From Halorientalis regularis (GTDB lineage: Archaea; Halobacteriota; Halobacteria; Halobacteriales; Haloarculaceae): 64,000 nt of DNA. Where the stretch lies: positions 248,001-312,000 of the forward strand of contig NZ_JALJCL010000001.1 of NCBI RefSeq assembly GCF_023698535.1. Reading direction: 5' to 3'. Shown piece by piece: positions 10,372 to 54,295 of this stretch; positions within the stretch are counted from its first letter, which is position 1; every line of letters begins with the position of its first letter. The notes under the pieces are model-generated. The model did no database searches. It was not told the DNA's origin and saw only the letters and a list, made by a program, of their open reading frames with translations. The translations under genes were made by a program, and so were the position numbers.

Positions 10372-11748
10372 ACAGTAGTTGCTGAAGTAGCCAAGCTTCG
10401 ATTGTCGGCGCGGTCGTTGTCTCGGTATGGTCAAGACTACCGAGGCGAAACAGGTGAGTCGGGCTGCTTCGTCACTGCTGTTCCCGGAGCTTGAGTTCGG
10501 TGTTGCGGACAACGGCACCTATCCGAGCGAGGACTTCCAGCGAGTCATCACTCGGATAGCTTTCGATAACGAGTTTGCGAACGCTGGCGCGAAAGCGTAT
10601 CAACTTGCTCGTGGTGAGGATGTAGACGTTGGTGCCGAGTCACGGAATTCACTGGCGAGAGCCCTGCTGTACCATCTCCGTGGATTGGACGCGGACGCGG
10701 TCGACGATCAGTTCGACCGCGTCCGTGATGCTGTACTCGACGAAGCAGCCCGTAACCGCCTGTTCAGTCGACCCGTCGACGTTGCGACCGACGTACACGA
10801 CTGGCTCTATTACGGCGACACAGAGACACCGCACGTCTCTCGGACTGATCCCGACCGCGGAACCGACTGTGCCTACAAGTTCGCCACCATCTGTATCGTC
10901 GACCCGAGCGTCCGATTCACGCTTGGCTGGGTTGCGCTGGACGGTGCCAAGACCGACGAGTTGGCGGATGCACTCCGCCAACTCGTCTCCCAAGCACGGG
11001 AGTACGTCGAGATCAATCGCGTCTACCTCGACCGCGGCTTCTATCGCGTCCATCTTGCGTTGCTGCTGGAGGAGTTAAACGTCGAGTTCGTCATGCGTGC
11101 GCCACAGACGCGGAAAGTACAGCGATTCATCACCGACCACGACGAAGACACGTTCGTCGCAGAGTACGAGATGGCACGGTCGAATCCACCGACGGGCCGG
11201 ACGACAGTCCGGCTCGTCGTCACACCCCATCGGACCCGTGAGAACGATCAGTTCTGCCTGGTCACCAACCGCGAGGTCACGCGTGACCTCGCTCGGCCAC
11301 TCGCTGAAGCCTATCGTCGCCGCTGGGGGATCGAAACATCCTACCGCAAAGTCACGGAATTTCTCCCGAGAACGTCGTCACCGACGTTCTCTGTCCGGCT
11401 GTTCTACTTTCTGTTTGCTGTGGCCCTCTACAACCTGTGGGTGTTGACGAACCTGCTGCTCACACCAGACCGGACGGTCGGGCGGAAGCCGGTCCTCCCA
11501 ACCGTCCTGTTCAGGCAGTTTCTCGGGCAGATCCCGTATGGGTAGCATCTCGTTCGGCGACTGACTCGGGCCGGCACGTCCGAGTCAGGACGCCACTGGC
11601 TACTGGCAAGACTGCCAGAACATCCCTCGTCACTGGTTCTTGGCCGGCAGATCCGAACCACTCGGTGCTGGCGACCGAGTTATCTTGGATACAGCTGAGG
11701 GAACGAGCTTCGAGCAGTGATTCTCACAGTCGAATCAGCAACTACTGT
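10372..11748 (+). mobile_element. IS4-superfamily (ISH3-like) insertion sequence, about 1.38 kb
   Basis: Terminal inverted repeats ACAGTAGTTGCTGA at 10372-10385 and its reverse complement at 11735-11748 match over 14 bp; outside them the flanks still pair imperfectly (CCCACCGCT left against AGCCGTGGG right). One DDE transposase gene lies inside. I find no clean target duplication: the left flank ends GCTAA and the right flank begins AAAGC. The right flank is the left end of a TnpB-type element, and the pairing flanks may be the two arms of that element's hairpin, which would mean insertion into its loop. Confidence 0.8.
10427..11545 (+). CDS. IS4/ISH3-like DDE transposase
   Basis: 372 aa. 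The N-terminal part (about 1-110) is helical and presumably binds the ends; the RNase-H-like core has the first Asp in WLYYGDTET, the second Asp in VYLDRGFYR and the Glu in YRRRWGIETSYRK, the Y-R-E-K signature of the IS4 group, followed by the hydrophobic FYFLFAVALYNLWVLTN. No frameshift or internal stop, so it may be functional. Cut-and-paste transposition is expected. I assign the superfamily confidently but not the named ISH subgroup. Confidence 0.9.
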   Translation: MVKTTEAKQVSRAASSLLFPELEFGVADNGTYPSEDFQRVITRIAFDNEFANAGAKAYQLARGEDVDVGAESRNSLARALLYHLRGLDADAVDDQFDRVRDAVLDEAARNRLFSRPVDVATDVHDWLYYGDTETPHVSRTDPDRGTDCAYKFATICIVDPSVRFTLGWVALDGAKTDELADALRQLVSQAREYVEINRVYLDRGFYRVHLALLLEELNVEFVMRAPQTRKVQRFITDHDEDTFVAEYEMARSNPPTGRTTVRLVVTPHRTRENDQFCLVTNREVTRDLARPLAEAYRRRWGIETSYRKVTEFLPRTSSPTFSVRLFYFLFAVALYNLWVLTNLLLTPDRTVGRKPVLPTVLFRQFLGQIPYG

Positions 11749-13218: not shown

Positions 13219-13920
13219 TCAGTAGTGAACTTGTCGTACAGCGTCAGCTGTAGCAGTTCCAGAAATACGAATGTATTTTTGAGCAGTAGCGAGGTCACTC
13301 CAACCCATCAGGGCTTGTAACGGGACGGGGGCAACACCCTTGTACGCGTGATAACTGGCAGCCGTAGCCCGAAGACAGTGCGGATATACACGTCCGCTGA
13401 GCGCTGCCTGTTCTGCCGCTTCCTGTACTCGTCTGTTCACGGTCGTCCGAGAATGAGGAAACGACGAATACCGGTCGCTAAATCGCTCAATACAGAGTTC
13501 GACTCTCAGAGAAAGATCGAATGGAATCGCCCGTGCAGACGCGATCGTCTTCGGATGCCATCTAGACGCGAGCGCCTCTTGGACACTGAGAGTATCATTG
13601 TGTGACGCTTCTTGAGCAGCTTGCCGGTGACAGTAGCCACAAGCACATGGTTCGGATTTGGGTATCCGTACTAGCTTTCGGTTCCAGTCCAGCCAGTTCG
13701 TATCGAAATGCGCAATCTCTCCTGCACGCAGTCCTAGCCGACCAGCGATCAGACAGATGAAGCGTGCTTGAAACCTCCGCGGCTCGGGTAATTCCGAGCA
13801 GGCTTCCACCAGTAACTCAAACTCGCGGTCGGTGAGGACATCTTCGTATGTATGTCTCGTCGTCAGAGATCGCCGATGCCGATCAGCCCACTCGTTCGAC
13901 TCAGTTTGCCACTGTGTCAT
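13219..13920 (-). CDS. Compact tyrosine recombinase (phage-integrase fold)
   Basis: 233 aa from the ATG at 13918-13920. Catalytic residues are in order: Arg65 in GRLGLRAGEIAHF, His181 and Arg184 in YPHCLRATAASYH, Trp207 in MGWSDL and the nucleophile Tyr216 in ATAQKYIRIS. It lacks the usual N-terminal SAM-like core-binding domain, having only a 30-residue lead (SLTTRHTYEDVLTDREFELL), as seen in a haloarchaeal family of short site-specific recombinases. An internal CACGYC suggests a metal site. GC content is visibly lower than in the neighbours, which points to acquired DNA. The tRNA-iMet with a duplicated end lies 1 kb away. Confidence 0.9.
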   Translation of the reverse strand: MTQWQTESNEWADRHRRSLTTRHTYEDVLTDREFELLVEACSELPEPRRFQARFICLIAGRLGLRAGEIAHFDTNWLDWNRKLVRIPKSEPCACGYCHRQAAQEASHNDTLSVQEALASRWHPKTIASARAIPFDLSLRVELCIERFSDRYSSFPHSRTTVNRRVQEAAEQAALSGRVYPHCLRATAASYHAYKGVAPVPLQALMGWSDLATAQKYIRISGTATADAVRQVHY

Positions 13921-14026
13921 CGTAATCTTCCACTCGCGGCCGTCACGTGGGTATTTGTATTCTTGAACTGTAAGGAGCAATCGAAACAGTAACTCATTAT
14001 TTGCTCCTGGTGGTACCTCGATCCGG

Positions 14027-14934: not shown

Positions 14935-15009
14935 AGCGGGATGGGATAGCTCGGAGATTCCGGCGGGCTCATAACCCGCAGATCGGTAGTTCAAATCTAC
15001 CTCCCGCTA
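14935..15009 (+). tRNA. Initiator tRNA-Met (CAU)
   Basis: AGCGGGA at 14935-14941 pairs with TCCCGCT at 15002-15008, discriminator A at 15009. The anticodon stem has three G-C pairs (GGG CTCATAA CCC), the mark of an initiator, with CAT at 14970-14972. The T-arm reads GTAGTTCAAATCTAC. No intron. No encoded CCA. A near copy of the last 21 bases follows 134 bp downstream. Confidence 0.96.
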
Positions 15010-15143
15010 CTTTTCGACGTGAATAACACGGCGAGCACGCGTAGCCTGTGCTCGCTTTCATGAACGTCGAGAGTCTCTGTGTCGATTCGACGTAGGGAGT
15101 GGAGCAGAGCGGAAGAACCGCGGTTCAGATCTACCTCCCGCTA
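15010..15143 (+). repeat. tRNA-iMet trailer with duplicated tRNA 3' end
   Basis: GTTCAGATCTACCTCCCGCTA at 15123-15143 copies the tRNA end at 14989-15009 with one mismatch. Between them are a nested hairpin, outer TCGACGT/ACGTCGA and inner GCGAGCAC/GTGCTCGC, and at 15081-15094 a partial inverted copy of the T-arm (GTCGATTCGACGTA against GTAGATTTGAACTA). The copy ends 2 bp before the stop of the convergent RNase J gene. The same layout follows tRNA-Ser and tRNA-Thr in this window. Confidence 0.8.
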
Positions 15144-48180: not shown

Positions 48181-48264
48181 GGTGGGATAGCGAAGTGGCC
48201 TAACGCGCCTGCCTTGAGAGCAGGTGTCCTCACGGACTCAGGGGTTCGAATCCCCTTCCCACCG
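48181..48264 (+). tRNA. tRNA-Ser (UGA)
   Basis: GGTGGGA (48181-48187) pairs with TCCCACC (48257-48263), discriminator G at 48264. Positions 8-9 are TA. The anticodon loop CTTGAGA gives TGA at 48215-48217. The long variable arm (TGTCCTCACGGACTCA) marks a type II tRNA. T-arm AGGGGTTCGAATCCCCT. No intron. Confidence 0.94.
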
Positions 48265-48376
48265 CTTCTTCGCGAACGCACGTGAGCGGAGAGCGGTGCA
48301 CGTGGATTTTAACCCTGCCGGTCGCAGCGCGAACGGAGTGAGCACGTCTGGGCGTAGTTCGATCGCCGTCCCACCG
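48265..48376 (+). repeat. tRNA-Ser trailer with degenerate copy of the tRNA 3' end
   Basis: TTCGATCGCCGTCCCACCG at 48358-48376 resembles TTCGAATCCCCTTCCCACCG at 48245-48264, 113 bp earlier, with one gap and few mismatches. Between them GGATTTTAACCC near 48304-48315 resembles the inverted T-arm (GGATTCGAACCC), and CACGTG occurs on both sides of AGCGGAGAGCGG. This is the same order as after tRNA-iMet and tRNA-Thr, but more decayed. Confidence 0.6.
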
Positions 48377-53769: not shown

Positions 53770-53843
53770 GCCAGGGGAGCTTGGGCGGTCCAAGCACCCG
53801 ACTTGTAATCGGGAGTTCGTGGGTTCAAATCCCACCCCTGGCT
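53770..53843 (+). tRNA. tRNA-Thr (UGU)
   Basis: GCCAGGG (53770-53776) pairs with CCCTGGC (53836-53842), discriminator T at 53843. Anticodon stem CCCGA/TCGGG with loop CTTGTAA, anticodon TGT at 53804-53806. T-arm GTGGGTTCAAATCCCAC. No intron. Head of the repeat array that follows. Confidence 0.96.
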
Positions 53844-54295
53844 CCTTCGTCAAGTAAAACGAGACGAAGAGCCGCTGGTGGGATTTGAATCAGGGAGCGG
53901 AAGGTGAGCGAATGCGAACGGGAGCGACCGTGGTTCACTATCCCACCCCTGGCTTCGACGCGCTCACAACCCGTGAGCGCGGCGAGTCGTCTGGGATTTG
54001 AATCAGGGAGCGGGAGGTGAGCGAATGCGAACGGGAGCGACCGTGGTTCACTATCCCACCCCTGGCTCTTTCGTCGAGTCTCACGAGACGAAGAGCCACT
54101 GGGATTTGAACGAGAGGAGTCGCAGCGGCCGAACAGAGTGAGGCCGACCGTCTCCGCGTGGTTCACTATCCCACCCCTGGCTTCGACGCGCTCACAACCC
54201 GTGAGCGCGGCGAGTCGTCTGGGATTTGAATCAGGGAGCGGGAGGTGAGCGAATGCGAACGGGAGCGACCGTGGTTCAATATCCCACCCCTGGCT
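53844..54295 (+). repeat. Regular array of tRNA-Thr 3'-end copies with alternating hairpins
   Basis: Copies of the tRNA end (GGTTCA-nn-ATCCCACCCCTGGCT) lie at 53932, 54045, 54160 and 54273; with the tRNA's own at 53821 the steps are 111, 113, 115 and 113 bp. After each of the first four direct copies comes a hairpin and then an inverted T-arm (TGGGATTTGAA). Hairpin types alternate: B (GGCT-CTTTCGTC/GACGAAGAGCC), A (CGCGCTCAC/GTGAGCGCG), B, A, and a fifth, truncated B. The linker AGGTGAGCGAATGCGAACGG is shared by units 1, 2 and 4. No CDS. Confidence 0.9.

Follow-up and report, generated by a model that had tools for sequence, protein, structure and literature searches.

Many tRNA genes of the Halobacteria are followed by a tail, an array of up to five tandem units of about 100 to 130 bp. 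Each unit is laid out in the same order behind the tRNA: hairpin 1, often of the form GCGAAC-NNNNN-GTGAGC; an inverted partial T-arm (GGATTTGAA); a linker hairpin; and a copy of the tRNA end that runs from G53 of the T-loop to the discriminator base. Tails occur throughout the class Halobacteria and, as far as tested, are restricted to it. We put at about even the chance that a tail is a unit of a haloarchaeal family of small, noncoding, gene-free repeat elements that are anchored at tRNA 3' ends and join them by recombination at the T-loop, with a folded strand as the substrate. No prior account of the tails was found in the open-access literature that was searched; subscription papers lay mostly outside that search, and a prior description is possible. 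Excerpts from haloarchaeal papers describe single partial tRNA copies at prophages of a Haloquadratum genome (PMC3119063) and deal with the 3' ends (PMC7237163) and RNomics (PMC2584109) of H. volcanii and with pleolipoviruses (PMC5867852).

Tails in the window

The window, the whole 64,000-nt stretch of DNA analyzed here, is part of contig C11 in a haloarchaeal genome of 4.03 Mb (the home genome), and tails stand behind all three of its tRNAs: iMet, Ser, and Thr. A scan of the window with Rfam at gathering thresholds returned tRNAs only and no other family. The first-pass annotation had described a tail behind the initiator tRNA, and every part of it was found in place. The source of the copied 3' end is an initiator-type tRNA-Met (cat) at 14935 to 15009 on the plus strand, identified by ARAGORN and Rfam RF00005, with its 3' end called at 15009 or 15010. 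Hairpin 1 follows at 15014 to 15070 (plus strand) and consists of the nested stems that the annotation had reported, an outer stem TCGACGT (15014 to 15020)/ACGTCGA (15064 to 15070) and an inner stem GCGAGCAC (15031 to 15038)/GTGCTCGC (15048 to 15055), both of which form in the RNA fold. The partial inverted T-arm TGTCGATTCGAC, which we place at 15080 to 15091 (plus strand), is decayed and matches the complement of its own tRNA at 8 of 12 positions. Next comes a purine-rich linker at 15092 to 15122 (plus strand), a decayed member of the AGGGAGTGGAGCGAAGCGGAACGACCGTGG class, and finally the copy of the iMet 3' end, GTTCAGATCTACCTCCCGCTA, at 15123 to 15143 (plus strand). As reported, the copy spans 21 bp, agrees with the tRNA at 20 of 21 positions, and lies at a spacing of 134 bp; it runs from the T-loop to the discriminator base.

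The iMet tail is a poor example of the family. Its second hairpin is absent from the minimum-energy fold, and its folding z score is -2.1. Halorientalis persicus carries the same iMet tail in the same place, with a linker nearer the class consensus than the stretch at 15092 to 15122, and each of the two species has its own point change in the copy. The iMet tail of the window is thus vertically inherited and decaying rather than freshly copied. In H. salina (locus L051, from 5334), the iMet tRNA is gone from that place, and a remnant copy of its 3' end persists beside the RNase J gene. An RNase J gene also adjoins the iMet tRNA of the window, and its protein is 98% identical to that of H. persicus. 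We note that several haloarchaea encode two RNase J-like genes (L052/L063, L053/L074, L050/L060, and L055/L111), one copy being plasmid borne in Halostella and Halorussus.

The annotation had also claimed that the same order of parts, with a similar purine-rich linker, follows tRNA-Thr. Indeed, four units of this plan lie behind the tRNA-Thr(tgt) at 53770, all on the plus strand: unit 1 at 53844 to 53954 (fold z of -4.5 for 53847 to 53954), unit 2 at 53955 to 54067, unit 3 at 54068 to 54182 with a linker of another class, and unit 4 at 54183 to 54295, nearly identical to unit 2. Unit 1 folds like the rest of the tail family and unlike the iMet tail. The Thr copies have T-loop changes in common that are absent from tRNA-Thr itself, and they are therefore not fresh. 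A changed or one-base-longer T-loop (GTTCAACATCC, GTTCACTATCC) common to the units of an array was seen at L157, at L156, and at 53934 to 54295 of the window. Behind the tRNA-Ser(tga) at 48181 there is one decayed tail unit (48265 to 48376, plus strand), with a copy of 13/16.

Tails across the Halobacteria

Tandem units that each carry a tRNA 3' end were seen behind many tRNA species of the home genome. Within 250 bp downstream, 22 of its 62 tRNAs have a match of 15 or 16 of 16 nt to their own last 16 nt, against a control in which about 0.7% of pairings with another tRNA's end match. The search was extended to six genomes from six families of Halobacteria with a count that does not depend on any tail pattern. 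At a threshold of at least 14/16 within 250 bp downstream, 96 of 218 tRNAs had a copy of their own 3' end, whereas control pairs matched at a rate of at most 0.0014 (0.14%). By genome, the counts were 24/62 (the home genome), 15/30, 18/31, 14/31, 16/34, and 9/30; tails therefore follow 39% of tRNA genes at home and 30 to 58% of the sampled genes across the six, the other five genomes having been sampled for about 30 of their 42 to 50 tRNAs. Three genomes of the same phylum outside the Halobacteria gave 1 tRNA with a copy among 92 (0/31, 1/28, and 0/33), and by eye that sole match reflects a longer duplication of part of a tRNA and lacks the unit plan.

A pattern made solely from the universal bases of one linker class matched in 80 of 194 Halobacteria genomes and 41 of 65 genera, whereas the reversed pattern had no match in the same 194 genomes and the pattern itself had none in 163 genomes outside the Halobacteria drawn from the phylum. 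Thirty matching loci were fetched, one of which (L143) belongs to the home genome; each of the 30 is located downstream of a tRNA gene and on the same strand as it, 29 of them within 300 bp, and 19 have a copy that agrees with the resident tRNA end at 21 of 21 positions. That a different tRNA has the same plan had been taken to argue against one accidental duplication, and the presence of the plan at many tRNA species and across the class bears this out. So wide an occurrence, with one linker class alone present in 80 of 194 genomes, excludes the case that the annotation had named as fatal to its reading, in which the copy is an att remnant left by a single element in a single strain.

Copies belong to their own tRNA. 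Where a tRNA and its same-anticodon counterparts in other genomes differ, the copy has the base of its own tRNA at 539 sites and that of the other at 13, and 79 of 134 copies match their own tRNA at 21 of 21 positions. The annotation had asked whether copies track their tRNA or are inherited, and the answer is both: tracking holds across genomes, and the iMet tail shared with H. persicus is inherited. Moreover, tails are patchy, such that the same tRNA has one in some genera and lacks one in others. In a dense tRNA cluster on contig C4 of the home genome (C4:112978-118500; L002, L008, and L032), none of the 18 tRNAs is followed within 250 bp by a copy of its 3' end. Many tRNA genes are likewise densely packed at C22:17-21 kb of the sister genome G195, and such clusters may belong to an element.

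The folded strand

Units fold better on the strand of the tRNA. The mean fold z of 43 distinct units was -3.7 for the tRNA strand, compared to -2.5 for its complement, and the tRNA strand had the lower value in 35 of them. Symmetric 2x2 internal loops were counted in 166 units, which came from six genomes and were folded by Watson-Crick pairing alone. Of 284 such loops on the tRNA strand, 222 were tandem GA/GA (5'-GA-3' against 5'-GA-3'), compared to 4 of 118 in shuffled units. The GA hairpin core, GCGAACN5GTGAGC, is present at 13 sites of the home genome; by position, 12 of these fall within tRNA tails, in each case on the strand of the tRNA. Finally, the linker stem changes in a compensatory manner: 95.2% of cells were paired, compared to at most 55.9% with slid partners, and 18 cells were doubly changed, compared to 3.8 in shuffles, in sequences that were chosen by length from the listed pattern matches and in which the pattern leaves four inner pairs unfixed. 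Before the folding and linker counts, we removed the units of five chance-match loci as well as the distal matches at Arg(cct) and Arg(ccg). Mismatches left the strand undecided (67 G-T to 52 A-C), and the GA/GA loops decided it. From the strand bias, the GA/GA loops, the compensatory stem, and the GA core, we conclude that what is kept is the way in which the tRNA-sense strand folds, be it RNA or single-stranded DNA.

Two structural readings were set aside. The GA pairs were considered as k-turns, a reading that was dropped because some hairpin 1 variants, by eye, have Watson-Crick pairs in their place. The inverted arm was considered as a full complement of T-stem plus acceptor, which was convincing by eye in a few loci; the test backs the T-stem part (own mean of 6.8 versus 5.4, P = 4.5e-6), the acceptor part being marginal (P = 0.03). 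The match of the inverted arm to its own tRNA is partial: the own tRNA ranked first in 5 of 26 loci, 4 of 30 loci with a copy below 17/21 having been omitted beforehand.

Strand-specific folding fits RNA as well as DNA, and the main rival, which we judge unlikely but worth weighing, is that the tail works as RNA. Either a structured trailer of the pre-tRNA or a stable small RNA released from that trailer might direct termination, cleavage by tRNase Z, or turnover, and the inverted arm could pair with the T-arm of its own tRNA until the copy sequesters the arm. The better folding of the tRNA strand, the tandem GA/GA loops found mostly there, and the compensatory stem changes are all what such a trailer would predict. 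It is harder to reconcile with the patchy occurrence of tails between genera, and it leaves unexplained both the exact copy from T-loop to discriminator base and the polarity of the arrays described below. Were tails to act as RNA, haloarchaeal tRNA maturation would have an unknown layer.

Growth and turnover of the arrays

Arrays are polar. At a threshold of 13/16, the tRNA-proximal copy was the better one in 30 arrays and the distal copy in 3, with 21 ties, and at 11/16 the count was 42 to 3 with 18 ties. These counts cover arrays with at least two copies, with the C4 tRNA cluster loci and the outgroup omitted, and the age of a copy is read from its identity only.

Arrays also differ between close relatives. 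In the sister species G195, of the same genus, copy number differs in 16 of 23 tRNA pairs with a copy in at least one of the two genomes; the pairs were made by anticodon and best flank, and some of them are weak. Such turnover is a further point against a trailer RNA. At Leu(cag), the home genome has one 102-bp unit more, such that its positions 102 to 600 correspond to 0 to 501 of G195, and thereafter both flanks continue at 98%. Similar whole-unit registers between the two genomes were found at Leu(caa), Val(tac), and Ser(cga), and the order of units at Val(tac) is altered. Tail arrays change fast between species and could be used as strain markers whether the tails are inserted units or RNAs.

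Some of this change may need no dedicated system. Neighboring units are identical at Lys(ctt), Leu(gag), Glu(ctc), and Gly(gcc), two-unit blocks are repeated at Val(tac), and the identical adjacent units at Lys(ctt) and Leu(gag) look like plain tandem duplication. One could extend this to all tails and suppose neutral tandem repeats, in which the tRNA 3' end and a trailer hairpin multiply through slippage and unequal exchange, with the hairpins favoring slippage. We find this improbable as a general account. Different tRNA loci of the home genome have linkers in common (33 pairs at 75% or more, among 14 loci, in a comparison that also left out 4 further units lacking a recognized inverted arm), while hairpin 1 of the linker-sharing pairs is at background, 0.53; slippage in place could not give the same linker classes behind different tRNAs. 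Nor would neutral repeats maintain compensatory changes and the 222 GA/GA loops, and the occurrence in Halobacteria only, as far as tested, also counts against them.

Integrative elements at tRNA genes

A direct repeat of a tRNA 3' end is a trait of att scars, and tails have it. Tails might then be the scars of ordinary integrative elements, pleolipoviruses or others that bear an integrase, with one 3' copy left per integration. Direct copies of tRNA 3' ends are the product of such elements, and haloarchaeal integrase families are common, according to a review of archaeal recombinases (PMC8371274). Fifteen integrase matches were found in the home genome. Elements at two tRNA loci, however, lie between a tRNA and its tail. 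At tRNA-Val(cac), a 2.5-kb element, whose SNJ2-like integrase is 39.7% identical to that of SNJ2, lies between the tRNA and attR, a second tRNA-end copy, and attR is followed by a tail that comprises hairpin 1, inverted arm, and linker. The tRNA-Asp of L158 shows the same arrangement: two tail units are preceded by an element of about 0.9 kb, whose repeat measures about 40 bp. The element cores matched 19 bp at Val and about 40 bp at Asp, whereas tail copies start at G53, and the limits of tail copies and att cores are unequal at both loci. These two elements, with their different att boundaries, again exclude the att-remnant case that the annotation had raised.

SNJ2-type integrases and pleolipovirus att sites share the hosts of the tails and target tRNA 3' ends, but their cores are short and come without inverted arm or linker. 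Neither part was present in the attP regions of SNJ2, HHPV4, Harhisp1, Halfgib1, and LSV-48N, where attP is annotated in Harhisp1 and Halfgib1 and was placed by eye next to the integrase in the other three. Moreover, a uniform unit size and covarying stems are unexpected of scars. Because tRNA and tail are separated at two loci by an integrated element whose att boundaries differ, tails appear not to be ordinary att scars, although they share a target with elements, and we consider a scar origin very improbable. The tails warn against taking every tRNA 3' repeat for the scar of a provirus.

Tail and copy patterns had no matches in a collection of viral contigs that is apparently poor in haloarchaeal viruses; there, the SNJ2-like integrase query found no confirmed relative and the integrase of SNJ2 itself had one weak hit, and for these reasons the viral negative is a weak one. 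Phage and plasmid searches gave tRNA genes, and no tail, among the matches listed. In the window, a tyrosine recombinase (Pfam Phage_integrase, E value of 2.4e-14) is encoded at 13219 to 13980 on the minus strand. It was considered as the cause of the iMet tail and rejected because it lies upstream of the iMet gene and its relatives are int1 of phiCh1 and phiH and the integrase of HCTV-5. The open reading frame at 10427 to 11545 (plus strand) resembles an insertion sequence transposase by eye.

How units might be added

Under the reading that we prefer, that of small anchored repeat elements, a new unit would enter beside the tRNA by recombination within the T-loop (GTTCRAAT). The incoming unit would supply its own 3' half so that the tRNA stays functional, and the former 3' end would be pushed outward, where it would drift. 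The recognized substrate may be the folded tRNA-sense strand, held folded by tandem G-A pairs in a manner reminiscent of integron attC sites. As the units carry no gene, they would be mobilized in trans. A T-loop crossover and the need for a functional tRNA would lead one to expect copy limits at the T-loop and the discriminator base, and polar arrays with older, drifting distal copies would fit insertion next to the gene.

What speaks for this reading is the sum of the observations: copies that are class-wide and specific to their own tRNA, homology bounded by the T-loop on one side and the discriminator base on the other, the polarity of the arrays (30 to 3, with 21 ties), sister species that differ by exact units while the flank stays unchanged, linkers that are shared where hairpin 1 is not, the compensatory stem, the GA/GA loops, and the GA core in tails. 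Against it, 21 of 54 arrays are without polarity, the Thr copies are not fresh, the inverted arm is partial, the identical neighbors at Lys(ctt) and Leu(gag) resemble simple tandem duplicates, and the strand bias of the fold suits RNA equally well; moreover, no recombination enzyme for the units was found and no recombinase was tied to them. Slippage loss between direct repeats would also yield identical exact unit differences. A bolder reading, which we hold less likely than not, is that the Halobacteria have an undescribed tRNA-anchored array system. A recombinase would act on the folded tRNA-sense strand and place units that are about 100 bp long and free of genes into the T-loops of many different tRNA genes, each unit rebuilding the tRNA 3' end and leaving a polar, cassette-like record behind it. 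If units are inserted beside the tRNA, then an unnamed recombinase or replication process acts on essential genes.

Known systems resemble the tails in part. The 178-bp repeats of Escherichia coli tyrT, the source of RtT RNA (Rfam RF00391), are repeated in tandem downstream of a tRNA gene, and every unit includes the final 19 bp or so of that gene. Tails are alike in this arrangement and differ in being class-wide, in following many tRNAs, and in having no Rfam match to RtT in the gathering scan of the window. To our knowledge, the tyrT repeats are confined to one locus in enterobacteria, and we know of no class-wide set at many tRNAs and no plan of inverted arm plus linker. Integron attC sites are strand-specific folded sites with a variable inner stem and polar addition of cassettes. 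A strand-specific fold, conserved ends, and a variable inner stem were each tested on tails and present, but tails have no gene cassettes and are anchored at tRNAs, and any IntI-type enzyme of theirs would be putative; the likeness is one of resemblance only. As far as the excerpted account of Dehalococcoides ssrA islands goes, elements there insert in the T-loop, leave tandem 20-bp direct repeats of the 3' end, and have the newest element next to the gene (PMC3146451). The 3'-end repeats and the T-loop point of such tRNA- and ssrA-targeted accretion arrays are like those of tails, and the repeats lend the scar reading some support; the islands, however, are kilobase sized with integration genes, whereas tail units are of about 100 bp and gene-free.

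At 500 to 1100 of L049 (contig C5 of the home genome, 76 kb), a 5'-truncated tRNA-Gly(ccc) is followed by a hairpin 1 that is the same as that of the intact gene 1.6 kb upstream, and the locus is probably an element or a large duplication with tail parts on both sides.
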